Source of the DNA: an uncultured delta proteobacterium
Lineage (GTDB): Bacteria > Desulfobacterota > Syntrophia > Syntrophales > UBA8958
DNA: 64,000 nucleotides
Direction of reading: 5' to 3'
NCBI GenBank assembly: GCA_903885795.1
Contig: CAISJV010000017.1
Coordinates: 124,001 to 188,000 of the forward strand
In this document: piece after piece, positions 47,704-55,525 of the stretch
Position numbering within the stretch: the stretch's first letter is position 1
How the letters are laid out: every line of letters starts with the position of its first letter
Position numbers and translations under genes: made by a program
Notes under the pieces: model-generated
Databases searched by the model: none
Told to the model about the DNA's origin: nothing
Seen by the model: only the letters and a program-made list of their open reading frames with translations

Positions 47704-48693
47704 ATGGAAAAGTTGCTGACGGTGCTTTTGGTATCAATCGTCTTAATTTTTTCCATGACCCCATTCTCCTCGGCCAAGACGATCTGGAATGCCAATTCCG
47801 TATGGCCGGCCAATAATCATCATAGCGTCGGTCTGAATAAATTTGCGAAGAAAGTTAACACCGCCACTAAGGGAGAACTGGATATTGTTGTCCATTCTAG
47901 CGCCCTGGGATACAAGGGTCCGGAACTTCTTAAGGTAGTCAGAGACGGTCTTGTGCCTGTCTCTGATATTCTTATCAGCAACGCAGCAAACGACGAAAAG
48001 ATTTTCCAGATCGTCACCCTGCCCTTTCTGGTCCGGAATTTTGACGAACTCCATACGTTGATTGATATCGCCCGTCCTTACTTCGACAAGACCGCACAGA
48101 AATGGGGTCAGAAGATTCTTTACACGGCTCCCTGGCCCGGCGCCGGCCTCTGGACCAAAAATGAGGTCAAAAAACTGGCCGACCTGAAAGGTCTCAAGAC
48201 CCGAGCCTATGACAAGAACGGCGCCATGGTCATGGAGGCCGTCGGCGCCACCCCACTAAATTTAACTTTCAGCGAGGTATACACTGCGCTCCATGCAGGC
48301 GTAATTGATTCCGTCATAACCTCGTCACCCACAGCTGTGGACGCCAAGTTCTGGGAAGTCCTGAAATATTATGAACCCCTGAATATCACCATCGCCACCA
48401 ACATGGTAACGGTGAACCAGAAGGCCTTCGACAAACTACCCAAGGCCCAGCAGGATGCCCTCGTAAAGGCGGGCAAGGAGATGGAAAAGAGCATGTGGGC
48501 AGGGGTGAAAAAATGGGATAAAGACATGGTAACTACTTGCAATAAAAACGGCATCAAGACCGTCATCCCCTCCAAGAAGCTCATCGCCGATCTAGAAAAT
48601 GTCACCGAAATCATACGCGCCGATTGGCTGAAAGGAGCCCCCGACGACGCCCGTAAGATTTACGCGGAATTCACAAGACGCATTAAACGATAA
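47704..48693 (+). CDS. TRAP transporter solute-binding protein (DctP family), orphan
   Basis: Periplasmic receptor of 329 residues with a signal peptide (VSIVLIFSMTPFSSA) and the DctP fold: GLNKFAKKVNTATKGELDI early, LADLKGLKTRAYDKNGA with the carboxylate-binding arginine region, and MVTVNQKAFDKLPKAQQDAL. TRAP receptors deliver organic acids to a DctQ-DctM membrane pair, but neither gene is in the window. The 18-base gap from livF places it in Liv operon 2. It may work with a distant DctQM or a shared permease. Confidence 0.88.
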   Translation: MEKLLTVLLVSIVLIFSMTPFSSAKTIWNANSVWPANNHHSVGLNKFAKKVNTATKGELDIVVHSSALGYKGPELLKVVRDGLVPVSDILISNAANDEKIFQIVTLPFLVRNFDELHTLIDIARPYFDKTAQKWGQKILYTAPWPGAGLWTKNEVKKLADLKGLKTRAYDKNGAMVMEAVGATPLNLTFSEVYTALHAGVIDSVITSSPTAVDAKFWEVLKYYEPLNITIATNMVTVNQKAFDKLPKAQQDALVKAGKEMEKSMWAGVKKWDKDMVTTCNKNGIKTVIPSKKLIADLENVTEIIRADWLKGAPDDARKIYAEFTRRIKR

Positions 48694-48733: not shown

Positions 48734-50035
48734 TCAATCGCCGTGTCCTCTCCTCTCAACCCTGAAAATGACATGCTCAAAAAACAGCACGGCCAACACG
48801 CCCATAACGAAACTGTTGCCCGCCACGGGGCGGATGAGATGTGGAAACGACGAAACTATATTGCCAGGCAGAAAGGCCACAACGATCGAGAGTAGCAGCG
48901 GCATTCCCACTACGAGACCATCACGGAGTTCCAGCTTTTTTGCCGACCCGAAGAGAACCATGAGCCCCGCCGCCACCTGTGTCGAGAGAACGTAAAAGAG
49001 AACCGCCCCGATGACAAGGGGGGGCACGGTTCCCATCAAGGCAATGGCCAGTGGGGAAAAGGCAAAAAGCAACAGAATTAACGCGGCAGGAATAAGCGTC
49101 CAGCGCGATAAGCAACCTGATGAAAGGACGACACCTAGACTGAGCGAATAGTTTACCTGGCCAATGACACCGAGGAATCCCGATGCAATGTTGGCAATCC
49201 CTGTGACCAATATTCCCCGATCGACGCGTCTGGCCATGTCTGGCGGGGAGACGATTGCATTCATGGACTGAATCGAGCCGAGGTCGTTGATGGAGAGCGC
49301 GATATAGCAAACAATGAAAGACAGAATAAGTCCCGCATCAAAGGAAAAAGATGTCGTCAGGTTCGTGAAAAAGAGTGACAGTGGAACCGCTCCCTGAAAA
49401 GCGCCGTGATCGAAGCTTCCAGGAAATATCAAAAAATGGATCACAGTCCCGGCGAACATGGTGCTCACAATTAGGAGTGAGCGGCCAATGCCCGTCAGCA
49501 GCCGGTGAAGTGTCATCATGGTCACCGCCAGCATGAGGGCAAAAAGCAAGTTTGCATTCACGGACACATCGGACCGCGTCTCCGTGATGAGGCGGAGTAC
49601 GGTGGGCATCAGGCAGAAGGCGATGAGCAGCAGCACGACAGAGACAACCCTTGGTGTGAACAGTTTCTGGAGGGCGCCGAAAAAACCCGTCACCGCACAG
49701 GCAGTCAGGAGAGCACCACCGATCATCACCGCTGTGTAAATCGTGTCCGTCGTAAACCCTTGGCTGGAGATAATTCCGATAAGTATCACCGTGGAGGGGC
49801 CGAAAATCAAGGGTAGCCGGTGACCAGCCAGAATCTCAATCATGACGAAAATCGCCGCGACGAAGAAGAGCTTCTGGAAGTAAACCGTCTGTTCGTTGGT
49901 AGACTCGAAGTGGAAGGCCCCGGCAATTTTCCCCAGGATGATAATCCAGGGAACAAGTATGGCACACCACTGGAGCCCCATCAGAACTGATTCCCAGATC
50001 GGTGTACGGTCATTAAGACCATAACGGAATTCCAT
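48734..50035 (-). CDS. NCS2-family nucleobase (uracil/xanthine-type) permease
   Basis: Inner-membrane symporter of 433 residues, normal length for the family, with about 12-14 hydrophobic segments. EILAGHRLPLIFGPSTVILI is the early conserved region, and NAIVSPPDMARRVDRGILVT and GVIGQVNYSLSLGVVLSSG are the central ones. It lacks the C-terminal extra domain of the other NCS2 gene. It is the last gene of the aminotransferase-MFS-serine dehydratase run, after a 96-base gap, so co-transcription is possible but not certain. It converges on the TRAP receptor gene. Confidence 0.85.
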   Translation of the reverse strand: MEFRYGLNDRTPIWESVLMGLQWCAILVPWIIILGKIAGAFHFESTNEQTVYFQKLFFVAAIFVMIEILAGHRLPLIFGPSTVILIGIISSQGFTTDTIYTAVMIGGALLTACAVTGFFGALQKLFTPRVVSVVLLLIAFCLMPTVLRLITETRSDVSVNANLLFALMLAVTMMTLHRLLTGIGRSLLIVSTMFAGTVIHFLIFPGSFDHGAFQGAVPLSLFFTNLTTSFSFDAGLILSFIVCYIALSINDLGSIQSMNAIVSPPDMARRVDRGILVTGIANIASGFLGVIGQVNYSLSLGVVLSSGCLSRWTLIPAALILLLFAFSPLAIALMGTVPPLVIGAVLFYVLSTQVAAGLMVLFGSAKKLELRDGLVVGMPLLLSIVVAFLPGNIVSSFPHLIRPVAGNSFVMGVLAVLFFEHVIFRVERRGHGD

Positions 50036-50131: not shown

Positions 50132-51679
50132 TTAACAATTCACCATATAAACGGCCAACCCCCCTTGCGAGGTTTCCCTGTATTTGGAAGACATGTCCCG
50201 GCCTGTGGCCGCCATGGTCCTAATGACGACATCATAGCTGACCTTGTTGTAGCCGGGGGTTTCTACTGTGGCAATGAGGAAGGCATTGTAGGCCTTCACA
50301 GCCCCCATGGCGCAGCGCTCAATGCAGGGGATCTGCACATAGCCGCCGACGGGGTCGCAGGTCATCCCCAGGTGGTGTTCCATGGCAATCGCCGCGGCGT
50401 CTTCTACAACCCGGATCGGGTGCCCCGGTTGTCCATAGGCCAGCATCGCCGCCGCCATACTTGCTGCTACGCCGATTTCGCCCTGGCATCCCGCCTCTGC
50501 CCCGGCAATGCTGGCATTATGCTTGGCCAGGAATCCGATGGCCGTCGCGGCCAAAAGCCCCTCCCGTAATGTCTGCTGAGAACACCGCTGCTGATATTTC
50601 ATCATATAGACAATCCCCGGCAGCACCCCTGCCGAACCGGCCGTCGGACCCGTAACGATCCGGTGCCCCATGGCGTTCTCTTCGGCCCCGGCGATGGCGT
50701 AGGCGCTTAGCCTGACCATGAAACGCGCCTCCGTCTGTTTGATTTTTTTTGCCTTTCTGTTGAGATCCCCGGCCTTTCTATACAGGCCGATGGGCCCGGG
50801 CAGTACACCTTCCCCTTTTAGCCCCTCCTGCACCGAAGCCTCCATGGCCTTCAGGATAAGATCGAGACGGCTATAAATTTCCCCCTCCCCGGTGCCCATG
50901 ATGGCCTTTTCGTTTTCCAGAATGAGGCGATGGAGGGAAATGTTATTCTTATCGAGCAATTCCTTCAGTTGAGTCATGTTTCCATAGGGGTAAGCAGGGG
51001 TTCCCCGCTTTGGTTCCGTCCACCCCTTCCACTGTATAAAGCCTCCGCCGATAGAATAGTACTCTTTTTCCAGAAGGATGCCTTTATCGCTCAGGAGGCG
51101 CATAATGATTGTGTTACTGAAGGGGTAGCTGTGCTCCAACTTATCGAAAATGATCTGGCGGTCCGATATGGAGATGTCCTTCCTGCCGACATGGAGCCGA
51201 TAGACAGTATCTGGATTTTTCTTCAAAGAGTCGAGGAATTCCGGGGCGCAGGTTTCCGGCTTCTGACCGAGAATTCCCGCCAGGATGGCCCAATCGGTGC
51301 CATGCCCCTTGCCGGTGGCGCTAAGGCTGCCGAACAGCCTTACCTCTATGGCCTGGGCAGCGGCCAGGGTCTGATCATCCATGCTGTTGACAGCGGCCAT
51401 AAAGTCGTTGGCGGCGCGCATGGGGGCGATAGTATGAGAACTTGAAGGTCCCGGACCAATCTTGAAGAGCTCAAATATGGAAGTAGTGATGGGTATTTTT
51501 TCTGAAGCAGCGATAAGCTGTTCACACTTGCCGGCAGCCGTTACTGCCGGCGGTGTTTGGGCATAAAGCGTCGGCAGTCGCAGCAGGCTCCCCGCCCCCG
51601 CCAGCCCTGCCCCCGTCAGGGCGGTAAACTGTAAGAAATGCCTGCGGTTCAAGCCTCTTTCTCTCTTATCTGATTCCAT
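50132..51679 (-). CDS. iron-sulfur L-serine dehydratase with a twin-arginine (Tat) signal peptide
   Basis: Deaminates L-serine to pyruvate and ammonia with a [4Fe-4S] cluster. The 515-residue protein starts with a Tat signal: NRRHFLQF, then a hydrophobic TGAGLAGAGSLLRLPTLYAQ with an A-x-A-like cleavage site. The beta domain follows with GPGPSSSHTIAPMRAANDF. The alpha domain carries Cys398, Cys441 and Cys452 with the 43/11 spacing of cluster ligands, and the chain ends in Cys515, matching the tail-in-mouth fourth ligand known from Legionella. Export through Tat would put a folded Fe-S enzyme in the periplasm, which is unusual. GGAGGG precedes the ATG. Confidence 0.9.
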   Translation of the reverse strand: MESDKRERGLNRRHFLQFTALTGAGLAGAGSLLRLPTLYAQTPPAVTAAGKCEQLIAASEKIPITTSIFELFKIGPGPSSSHTIAPMRAANDFMAAVNSMDDQTLAAAQAIEVRLFGSLSATGKGHGTDWAILAGILGQKPETCAPEFLDSLKKNPDTVYRLHVGRKDISISDRQIIFDKLEHSYPFSNTIIMRLLSDKGILLEKEYYSIGGGFIQWKGWTEPKRGTPAYPYGNMTQLKELLDKNNISLHRLILENEKAIMGTGEGEIYSRLDLILKAMEASVQEGLKGEGVLPGPIGLYRKAGDLNRKAKKIKQTEARFMVRLSAYAIAGAEENAMGHRIVTGPTAGSAGVLPGIVYMMKYQQRCSQQTLREGLLAATAIGFLAKHNASIAGAEAGCQGEIGVAASMAAAMLAYGQPGHPIRVVEDAAAIAMEHHLGMTCDPVGGYVQIPCIERCAMGAVKAYNAFLIATVETPGYNKVSYDVVIRTMAATGRDMSSKYRETSQGGLAVYMVNC

Positions 51680-51718
51680 ATACCTTTCCCTCCTTTACTT
51701 TTGACACTTCTCAGTCGA

Positions 51719-53008
51719 TTATTTCACCTTCTTTGCCGAACCTGTCTCCTCCATAAAACAGGCGATAATCATCGCCAGAACGACGCCGAAAACCAGTGGC
51801 ATCAGTGCCGCTTCAAAGTCGGACGCTGCGAGTTTGCCTCCGTGATGTTCGGAGACGTGCATGAGGAGATAGCCGAAAACCGGCGACAATTGAGCTGTCA
51901 TCATAAAAACCAGGAAATTCATTGCCCCCGCCGTAGATCCTTTGACATCATCCGGATTGACTTCTTTGATAATGCTGTAGGGAATCATTGCCGCCCCTGA
52001 GGCAATCCCCAGGGTGAGGGCAATGGCATAGCCGGAAATAATATCCTGATCGACATAAAGGGCAAACACAAGAGCGACAAGCATGACCATAGCGCCGCCA
52101 ATGAGAACGGGTTTGCGACGTCCGATGCGGTCGGAAAGATAACCGAGGAGGGGGCATCCGATAACCCAGCCGAGCGGGACCATGGATGCGATCTTTGCCG
52201 CCTGCAAGGGATCATAATGGAGACCTTGGCTTAGGTAGCTGACCCCCCAGATCATGTCGCCGATCGTGGTCGGAAGAAACAGCAGTCCGGCGCAAAGGCC
52301 ACAGAGGTAGGACTGGGGATTACTGAAGACGACTTTGTAGGTAGCAAAGATGGATAATATCGACCGCCGCCCTACCGCCGCTCCCGAGTCAGGATGCTCC
52401 TTCTTTTCCTTTGGCAGTAGCAGAACCAGTACCAGCGCCAGGATCATACCTGCGCCACCGGCAAGCATCCAGAAGAGCTGCCAGTCGATCCCCCGCACAT
52501 GGATGAGGTTATTGACGGTGGCCTGTCCGGCTGATCCTCCGGCCATCCCAAACATCTGTGTGGCCCCGACGGCTAAGGCCAGATTACGTGCCGGCAGGCT
52601 TTTCGTCGCCACAAATACAGCGCCGACAAAACCGAAGGCTGATCCTGCCCCCTGGAGCAACCGGCCGATGGAGGCGTAAAGGTGGTTGCCCGATCCGAAA
52701 AGAAGAGCTCCGCAGGCGACCATAACAATCCCGACGGGAATGCTGTATTTCGCCCCATACCGGTCCAGAACGGCGCCCGCCACAAGACTTACCGGTGAAT
52801 AGGTGTAATAGTACATGCCCAGAAGGGAGCTGATACCGAGAGTTGTCAACCCGAAGGCGCCGGTCAGTTCCGGAACCATGACACTTGGCGCGGAGCGGAG
52901 CACATATTGATAGAAATAGAAGAGAGCGCACAGCAGCCAGGCGGCTACACCCACGATATTTACGGTAGATCTTGAAGCTGAAGGCGCTGCTGCCGGGACT
53001 TGGTTCAC
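51719..53008 (-). CDS. major facilitator superfamily transporter
   Basis: Inner-membrane carrier of 429 residues with 12 predicted helices. The MFS loop motif after helix 2 appears as GAVLDRYGAKYSIPVG and its repeat in the second half as GYLSDRIGRRKPVLIGG. A helix start FYFYQYVLRSAPSVMVPEL resembles organic-acid carriers. The start is GTG 53008, with GGGAGG six bases upstream. It lies between an aminotransferase and the Tat serine dehydratase, with 32- and 39-base gaps. Pyruvate or an amino acid is a reasonable but unproven substrate. Confidence 0.85.
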   Translation of the reverse strand: MNQVPAAAPSASRSTVNIVGVAAWLLCALFYFYQYVLRSAPSVMVPELTGAFGLTTLGISSLLGMYYYTYSPVSLVAGAVLDRYGAKYSIPVGIVMVACGALLFGSGNHLYASIGRLLQGAGSAFGFVGAVFVATKSLPARNLALAVGATQMFGMAGGSAGQATVNNLIHVRGIDWQLFWMLAGGAGMILALVLVLLLPKEKKEHPDSGAAVGRRSILSIFATYKVVFSNPQSYLCGLCAGLLFLPTTIGDMIWGVSYLSQGLHYDPLQAAKIASMVPLGWVIGCPLLGYLSDRIGRRKPVLIGGAMVMLVALVFALYVDQDIISGYAIALTLGIASGAAMIPYSIIKEVNPDDVKGSTAGAMNFLVFMMTAQLSPVFGYLLMHVSEHHGGKLAASDFEAALMPLVFGVVLAMIIACFMEETGSAKKVK

Positions 53009-53040: not shown

Positions 53041-54222
53041 TTATTTAAACTCCTTCAATACTTCTCCGAATCCCGCCATGGCGTTACGGATTGTATCGTC
53101 ATCGACGCAGTAGGCAATACGGATGTAACCCGGCCCACCGAAACCGCTGCCGGGAACGGTGAGGATCCGCTTCTTCTGGAGGGCGCGGGCAAAGGCGACG
53201 TCATCAACGATAGGCGCCTTGAGAAAGAGGTAGAAGGCCCCTTCCGGCTTCTTCACCGCATATCCTACGGAAGCAAGGCCGTCGCAGAGGAGGTCTCGTT
53301 TGCGTTTGTAAATCTCCACATCCACCTTCAGCCCCTGAACCCGGGCAATCACCCGTTGCATGAGAGCCGGGGCATTAACGAATCCTAACATGCGGTTGCA
53401 CAGCACGAGGCCACCGATGATATCATGGATATGCTCGTTTTCAGGATGAGCAACGATGTAACCGATCCGTTCTCCCGGCAGAGAGAGGCTCTTGGAATAG
53501 GAGAAGGCCATGAGGCTGTTTGGATATGCCTCCAGGGTACTGGGAACCTCGACACCATCGTAAACAATATCGCGATAAGGCTCATCGGACACAAGATAGA
53601 TGACGCGGCCATATTCTCTGGATTTTCGACTCAAAATGGCGGCAAGGCCATGTATGGCGGCAGCGTCATAGACCTTCCCGGTGGGGTTATTAGGCGAGTT
53701 GATGAGGATAGCCTTTGTTTTTTCATTGATCCCCTCTTCAATAGCCTTTAAATCCAGAGAAAAATCTTCATGGGTGGGGACGATCCTGGTCACGCCGCCA
53801 CCGTTATCGACATAGAAACGATACTCGACAAAATAGGGAGCGGGAATGAGAACCTCGTCGCCGGGATCGAGGAGGGTCTTGAAAATGACATTAAGGGCCC
53901 CGCCGGCACCCACGGTCATGACGATATGATCCCTCAAAAGCGTCAGATTGTGCTCCAGGGAAAGAAAATCCGCTATCGCTTCCCGTGTTTCGGGATAGCC
54001 GGCATTGGGCATATATGCGTGCTTCCCAGGAATATCTTCCTCAACTACCAGTCGCAGTTCCCTTTTCAGGTCCTCGGGTGGATCAACATTGGGATTCCCG
54101 AGGCTGAAATCAAAGACATTTTTCGCCCCGAACTCCATCTTGAGTTGAATCCCTTCCTCGAACATCTTTCTGATCCACGATGATTGGGTGATAAAGCCTT
54201 GAATCTTGTCCGCAATTGCCAT
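53041..54222 (-). CDS. PLP-dependent class I/II aminotransferase
   Basis: Fold-type I aminotransferase of 393 residues. FSLGNPNVDPPEDL is at the N-terminus, INSPNNPTGKVYD near residue 170, the PLP lysine is in FSYSKSLSLPGERIGY, and the C-terminal arginine region is GYIRIAYCVDD. The second residue set differs from AspC in this window (no YWVSY; APYFVEY instead), so it is not a simple duplicate. It starts the operon that includes the MFS carrier and serine dehydratase, suggesting amino-acid or keto-acid interconversion. AAGGAGT lies before the ATG. Confidence 0.88.
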   Translation of the reverse strand: MAIADKIQGFITQSSWIRKMFEEGIQLKMEFGAKNVFDFSLGNPNVDPPEDLKRELRLVVEEDIPGKHAYMPNAGYPETREAIADFLSLEHNLTLLRDHIVMTVGAGGALNVIFKTLLDPGDEVLIPAPYFVEYRFYVDNGGGVTRIVPTHEDFSLDLKAIEEGINEKTKAILINSPNNPTGKVYDAAAIHGLAAILSRKSREYGRVIYLVSDEPYRDIVYDGVEVPSTLEAYPNSLMAFSYSKSLSLPGERIGYIVAHPENEHIHDIIGGLVLCNRMLGFVNAPALMQRVIARVQGLKVDVEIYKRKRDLLCDGLASVGYAVKKPEGAFYLFLKAPIVDDVAFARALQKKRILTVPGSGFGGPGYIRIAYCVDDDTIRNAMAGFGEVLKEFK

Positions 54223-54998: not shown

Positions 54999-55253
54999 TC
55001 ATTCGATCATTTTGTCGTAATCAGCATGGCTGCCGATCCAGAACCATAACAGGCCCACAGGTATTTCAACCGCCAGTTCCCGATAATGCATCCCTATACG
55101 GACTGATCTGTATTTGCCGGTTTTCTTGAAGTGGAGGGATGGGTGAGATGGATTGTTCTTTAGCAGAGCGAAGTTCGAATCGGCGAGCTCTTGAATGCTT
55201 TGAGGCAATATCTGGTAGCAATCCCAGAAGGTCGATGATGCAAAGTGTTTCAA
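54999..55253 (-). CDS. RelE/HigB-type toxin of a type II toxin-antitoxin pair
   Basis: The 84-residue protein has the ParE/RelE-superfamily pattern: helical ELADSNFALLKNNPSHPSL, then FKKTGKYRSVRIGMHYREL and the terminal LLWFWIGSHADYDKMI, where the H-x-x-Y-D end is typical of HigB/RelE-like ribonucleases. It overlaps the antitoxin gene by four bases. Its activity (mRNA cleavage or gyrase inhibition) cannot be decided by sequence alone. Confidence 0.85.
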   Translation of the reverse strand: MKHFASSTFWDCYQILPQSIQELADSNFALLKNNPSHPSLHFKKTGKYRSVRIGMHYRELAVEIPVGLLWFWIGSHADYDKMIE

Positions 55254-55450
55254 ATACTTTTCGTCTTTCCCGCCCTATGTTCCTCGATGGCGCTTTGCGC
55301 TAATCTGTCCAGTTTGGCGGTCTCGCTATCCATTTCTATCTGATGATCCCATTCGGCTGCATCAAATTCGATAAACCAGGAGCGAAAAGCGGCCCGTTCA
55401 CCGGGGCTGAGTTGTTTGACAGTCTGCTCAAGCATTTCGACTTGTGACAT
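55250..55450 (-). CDS. antitoxin of the type II pair
   Basis: The product from ATG 55450 (MSQVEMLEQTVKQL) is 66 residues long, with GGAG seven bases upstream. A start further up would lie before the predicted transcription start. The pattern VKQLSPGERAAFRSWFIEFD, then DRLAQSAIEEHRAGKTKSI, is that of the short addiction-module antitoxins paired with RelE/ParE-like toxins. The C-terminal part should wrap the toxin. It is encoded upstream of the toxin and translationally coupled to it. Confidence 0.82.
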   Translation of the reverse strand: MSQVEMLEQTVKQLSPGERAAFRSWFIEFDAAEWDHQIEMDSETAKLDRLAQSAIEEHRAGKTKSI

Positions 55451-55496
55451 GGTCATTCTCCTTCTAGTATCTTCTTTTTGTCCCAAGGTGGCTTCA

Positions 55497-55525
55497 ATTT
55501 TAGCATTTACATCCAATAAAAGCAA
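55497..55525 (-). promoter_or_regulatory. promoter of the toxin-antitoxin pair
   Basis: On the minus strand TTGCTT and TAAAAT are 17 bases apart, with TGC directly before the -10 (extended -10). The leader is about 40 bases. It supports the antitoxin start at 55450. Confidence 0.65.

Follow-up and report, generated by a model that had tools for sequence, protein, structure and literature searches.

A Conserved Twin-Arginine Signal on a Predicted [4Fe-4S] L-Serine Dehydratase of Thermodesulfobacteriota

The Dehydratase Locus

The window, the whole 64,000-nucleotide stretch of DNA analysed here, comes from an anaerobic, Syntrophus-like bacterium and encodes on its reverse strand a 515-aa protein (50132..51679) assigned through TIGR00720, Pfam and PDB matches as a Tat-tagged [4Fe-4S] L-serine dehydratase (L-serine ammonia-lyase). 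On the same strand lie a PLP-dependent aminotransferase of the PRK06836 type (53041..54222; NF005305, 576.6 bits against a cut-off of 376), an MFS transporter (51719..53008; PF07690, E 3.8e-36) and an NCS2-family permease (48734..50035; PF00860, E 9.9e-32). These genes follow one another in the order aminotransferase, MFS transporter, dehydratase and NCS2 permease, separated by gaps of 32, 39 and 96 bp, an arrangement that gives them the appearance of an operon. The aminotransferase and the MFS transporter are also kept beside the dehydratase's closest homologue, in the same-genus genome G007.

Other features of the region were recorded as well. A lone DctP-type TRAP binding protein is encoded on the forward strand at 47704-48693, after a branched-chain amino acid ABC operon, and in G007 its counterpart precedes DctQ/DctM genes that directly adjoin the dehydratase. 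Two small overlapping ORFs of 91 and 84 aa (54999-55525, reverse strand) look toxin-antitoxin-like by eye. About 8 kb past the window end, a CyuA-type cysteine desulfidase gene is followed by an amino-acid permease gene (L199:970-3677, G000 contig C17).

The Enzyme Core

By every feature tested, the gene is predicted to encode a complete [4Fe-4S] L-serine dehydratase that belongs to TIGR00720. The 515-aa ORF matches this NCBIfam L-serine ammonia-lyase model at 442.5 bits, against a curated equivalog cut-off of 345.1, and Pfam places SDH_beta at residues 67-218 and SDH_alpha at residues 245-509, with E values of 2e-69 for PF03313 and 1.7e-44 for PF03315. The best PDB match, 4rqo from Legionella pneumophila (E 1e-102), aligns from residue 65 to the last residue; the sequence search gave no other solved relative of full length. 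Since the SDH domains begin at residue 67 and the 4rqo alignment at residue 65, residues 1-66 lie outside the enzyme, and the catalytic part, delimited by alignment, invariant columns and the fold match to 4rqo, comprises residues 67-515 (50135..51481, reverse strand). The AlphaFold model is confidently folded from about residue 57, with pLDDT below 50 over residues 1-56; the cluster loops and the C-terminal tail are also of low confidence in this model, which was built without the cluster. Its core matches 4rqo with E 1.5e-29 and a TM score of 0.87 by target.

The catalytic residues named in the original prediction, the SSSHT motif and the cysteines at 398, 441, 452 and 515, are all present: His82 lies within SSSHT, and Cys398, Cys441, Cys452 and the terminal Cys515 align with the family's ligand and C-terminal cysteines. 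All columns that do not vary among 20 untagged relatives, the Legionella enzyme being one of them, are kept, and the protein has the canonical EENA, GHGT and Q449. For 4rqo, PMC12647591 assigns cluster binding to three cysteines and the fourth iron to the C-terminal cysteine, and names His61 as the probable base. Transferred by alignment, these roles would make His82 the base of the window enzyme, Cys398, Cys441 and Cys452 its cluster-binding residues and Cys515 its C-terminal cysteine.

The Twin-Arginine Signal and Its Start Codon

The N-terminus of the dehydratase reads MESDKRERGLNRRHFLQFTALTGAGLAGAGSLLRLPTLYAQ and is followed by a short linker. The signal covers residues 1-41 (51557..51679, reverse strand), with RRHFL at residues 12-16 and then a long uncharged stretch; the linker between signal and catalytic domain, delimited by AlphaFold pLDDT, covers residues 42-66 (51482..51556, reverse strand). 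Curated models call this signal: residues 10-34 score 21.3 bits with TIGR01409 (TAT_signal_seq), above its NCBIfam cut-off of 16.7, and PF10518 matches at E = 5.5e-4 and 20.2 bits, just below its cut-off of 22.7. Cleavage is likely after LYA-40, a site placed by eye, where the residue at -3 is Leu, not the commonest choice. A simple Tat rule, consisting of RR followed by a hydrophobic stretch, was applied to shuffled versions of the 61-residue segment bearing the signal, and 430 of 200,000 (0.2%) satisfied it; of 10,991 windows taken from within mature SDH proteins, none did so. The window's genome encodes TatC (250.9 bits, E 1.9e-74).

Several cytosolic relatives (e.g. L129 and L182) carry long, functionless in-frame open stretches upstream, and the extension of the window protein might likewise be a mis-called start or a chance reading of upstream DNA. 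We reject this explanation and assign it next to no probability. A Shine-Dalgarno region, AAAGGAGGG, read directly just 5' of the ATG (51687..51697, reverse strand), supports initiation there. The only starts before residue 87 are ATG 1 and TTG 10, and the form beginning at TTG 10 still has the RR pair; the next ATG is residue 87, past the catalytic SSSHT. With no start between residues 10 and 87, internal initiation therefore cannot yield a full-length cytosolic form. Furthermore, homologous signals occur in other genomes, and the N-terminus is conserved in G007, the nearest relative: dN/dS against it is 0.12 over residues 10-41 and 0.13 over residues 67-157 (one pair, few sites), indicating that signal and catalytic domain are under equally strong purifying selection. 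At the sequence level, the N-terminus is confirmed as a conserved Tat signal, and the original prediction of an L-serine dehydratase bearing such a signal is borne out.

Tat-Tagged Relatives in the Phylum

Relatives were searched over several hundred genomes of the phylum, the only one sampled deeply, and Tat-tagged homologues were found in at least 19 genomes of Thermodesulfobacteriota, falling into three sequence groups. Group A comprises the window genome and G007, and group B comprises relatives from the same order (G008, G027, G030, G051, G145, G151, G148) and from another order (G327, G765). Group C is of Desulfovibrionaceae type, a name taken from its tree neighbours, and includes G228, G261, G339, G477, G687, G289, G559 and G589. 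A further Desulfovibrionaceae MAG sequence, L017, combines a good Tat signal with a frameshifted dehydratase copy and was excluded from the tree.

Homologues that have the Tat signal together with all four cysteines, for which the original prediction proposed a search, are numerous: RR-x-F-[LI] is found in 16/16 distinct complete Tat-type sequences, and so are the catalytic His, the three ligand Cys and the C-terminal Cys. Within groups, the distance between RR and SSSHT hardly varies (53-54 residues in C, 64-66 in B), and cleavage-like A-x-A or A-x-G sites are seen in most Tat-type relatives. Most other relatives, most Desulfovibrionaceae among them, begin at the catalytic domain, the pattern that the original prediction had set against itself, but these untagged proteins form separate branches, and no refuting outcome named in that prediction applied. 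Tagged and untagged copies occur together in G228, G261, G339, G477 and G289, so the tagged copy is not the sole serine dehydratase in those genomes.

Some candidate relatives were of poorer quality or were set aside. The closest homologue of the window protein, that of G007 (L018:1-1105, L124:1-489), is divided between two contigs and apparently frameshifted, either through assembly error or through decay. L002, L129, L047 and L182, whose matches start at residue 28-50, were considered as signal-bearing and rejected, their in-frame upstream DNA having no signal. Among plasmid-borne relatives, the signal region was unmatched in the 12 best-ranked of 189 records.

Group B has altered residues that are invariant elsewhere, namely E334 to G, G127 to R/H and Q449 to L/V/I, so that EENA becomes EGNA and GHGT becomes GHRT or GHHT (L114-L118, L156, L202). 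A substrate shift in this group is a serious possibility suggested by these motifs, and with invariant residues lost, serine is not a safe assumption for every Tat-type member. In a rival reading, the enzyme is exported by Tat but has a physiological substrate other than L-serine, such as threonine, cysteine, hydroxyaspartate or some further beta-hydroxy or beta-substituted amino acid, freed outside the cytoplasm from peptides or the cell wall. It would be in keeping with the replacements at positions invariant in cytosolic relatives (EGNA, GHRT/GHHT, Q449 to L/V/I), with the unfixed peptide specificity of the C69 peptidases described below, and with CyuA, which has the same fold and performs cysteine desulfidation (PMC12647591). 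The window enzyme itself, however, has none of the group B changes; it retains EENA, GHGT and Q449, exceeds the L-serine ammonia-lyase equivalog cut-off and is 13-15% identical to CyuA structures, and its genome has a separate CyuA-type gene. We regard a different substrate as rather unlikely, and L-serine or a close analogue is the substrate we prefer.

In a tree of 53 sequences, the window protein groups with B (support 87/89), and group C is a separate, fully supported group beside an untagged sequence. The starred branches require the Tat tag to have changed at least twice. A single Tat clade is not rejected by the AU test (p 0.073), which leaves one gain with losses and two gains both possible; the tag may have arisen repeatedly.

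A C69 Peptidase beside Tat-Type Genes

A C69 peptidase gene adjoins the Tat-type dehydratase in nine genomes, six of group C and three of group B; these are related genomes and not independent counts, and still the pairing is seen in two distinct groups and with either gene order (L153:6331-9581, L118:7763-11370, L155:2589-5815). The neighbouring C69 protein has its own signal peptide, with the N-terminal nucleophile Cys right after it (ALA-CTT type). Among untagged loci flanked on each side by 2 kb or more, 0/64 have a C69 neighbour, including the untagged paralogues of G228 and G289. C69 genes are present in 15/61 genomes in a sample of the order, and the neighbour is the only C69 gene found in the genomes of G228, G261, G339, G477 and G289. 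Such pairing would fit peptide cleavage and deamination outside the membrane.

No C69 gene was found in the window's own genome, so the peptidase link applies through the relatives only. The idea of C69 as a universal partner was rejected, since the window's genome and roughly half of the Tat-type loci lack the gene; the C69 genes of G795, G833, G193 and G402 have no adjoining serine dehydratase.

A different neighbourhood occurs in G027 (L115:6246-12541), where the Tat-type dehydratase is flanked by an AAT-type Ntn hydrolase with a signal-like N-terminus, an S13 carboxypeptidase and an arginine-deiminase-family protein with a hydrophobic N-terminus. This cluster is perhaps a set of exported nitrogen-releasing enzymes.

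The secreted nature of the recurrent neighbour also bears on whether the tag serves export at all. The family is normally cytoplasmic and Tat prediction from sequence gives false positives, so the protein might stay in the cytoplasm, or the segment might be an inward-facing membrane anchor. We judge this improbable, given that curated Tat models match the N-terminus, that the RR motif, the hydrophobic stretch and their spacing recur in all three groups and are under selection, that most relatives have cleavage-like A-x-A/A-x-G sites, and that the gene recurrently adjoining the dehydratase in relatives encodes a secreted peptidase. Tat-dependent export is the reading carried forward here.

Proposed Mechanism and Meaning

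In the proposed mechanism, the dehydratase would fold and receive its [4Fe-4S] cluster in the cytoplasm, and the Tat translocase would then export the cluster-loaded enzyme and release it outside the inner membrane. There it would deaminate L-serine, or a close beta-hydroxy amino acid, to a 2-oxo acid (pyruvate) and ammonium. The 2-oxo acid could be taken up, possibly via the MFS carrier of the apparent operon, and then used, for instance by the aminotransferase encoded with it. The secreted C69 peptidase of relatives probably frees the amino acid in the same compartment.

For the window enzyme, we infer export, activity, substrate, co-transcription and product uptake from its sequence and gene context. 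That it is a genuine, cluster-loaded L-serine ammonia-lyase, exported by Tat and deaminating serine or a close analogue outside the inner membrane, is the account we hold to be reasonably likely, and in some bacteria the deamination of serine, or of an amino acid like it, probably takes place outside the cytoplasm. More tentative, and somewhat short of an even chance in our estimate, is the wider proposal for anaerobic Thermodesulfobacteriota: an undescribed class of exported Fe-S ammonia-lyases that, with secreted C69 peptidases and organic-acid transporters, would constitute extracytoplasmic peptide catabolism in which the 2-oxo acid alone is imported, the tag having perhaps been gained repeatedly and one branch having shifted its substrate. 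The earlier suggestion that periplasmic deamination spares serine import is a guess.

If the proposal holds, syntrophic and sulfate-reducing bacteria would carry out one step of amino-acid catabolism, with its release of ammonium and pyruvate, outside the membrane. Such a conserved, exported enzyme would bear on cross-feeding in anaerobic communities, as well as on the way in which an iron-sulfur hydro-lyase acquires its cluster ahead of Tat export. The role of location is directly testable in genomes with both tagged and untagged copies.

Comparison with Known Systems

Descriptions of [4Fe-4S] serine dehydratases place these oxygen-sensitive enzymes in the cytoplasm, with imported serine as their substrate. 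The type 2 L-serine dehydratase of Legionella pneumophila (4RQO) resembles the window protein, at 44% identity, in its beta-alpha domain order, its catalytic His, its three cluster Cys and its C-terminal Cys, and in its fold (TM 0.87 by target). The Legionella enzyme, however, starts at the catalytic domain and is taken as cytoplasmic, whereas the window protein adds a 66-residue Tat signal and linker. No published Tat-exported serine dehydratase was found in the open-licence literature searched, which omits most subscription journals, and automatic annotation may well already name such tagged proteins. What is new here is the pairing of C69 with Tat-type genes; the original prediction included neither this link nor the recurrence of Tat-tagged dehydratases as a class.

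In Campylobacter jejuni 81-176, deamination by the secreted asparaginase AnsBs and by gamma-glutamyl transpeptidase precedes product import (PMC4178425). AnsBs is similar in its working, as an amino-acid-deaminating enzyme put outside through a gained signal, although both enzymes belong to other protein families and AnsBs uses Sec and has no iron-sulfur cluster. The serine dehydratase of C. jejuni is an ordinary SdaA supplied with serine imported by SdaC, unlike the tagged enzyme of the window.

CyuA shares a homologous catalytic domain, and its [4Fe-4S] cluster is bound by three Cys (PMC12647591). It differs in its N-domain and catalytic residues and is 13-15% identical to the window protein, which was considered as a CyuA-type enzyme and rejected at that identity, matching TIGR00720 instead.

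Hydrogenases and molybdoenzymes are exported by Tat after folding with a metal cofactor, and such cofactor enzymes are mostly redox enzymes. The window protein resembles them in carrying a twin-arginine signal on a protein predicted to fold around its cofactor, and it differs from them as a hydro-lyase of amino-acid catabolism.
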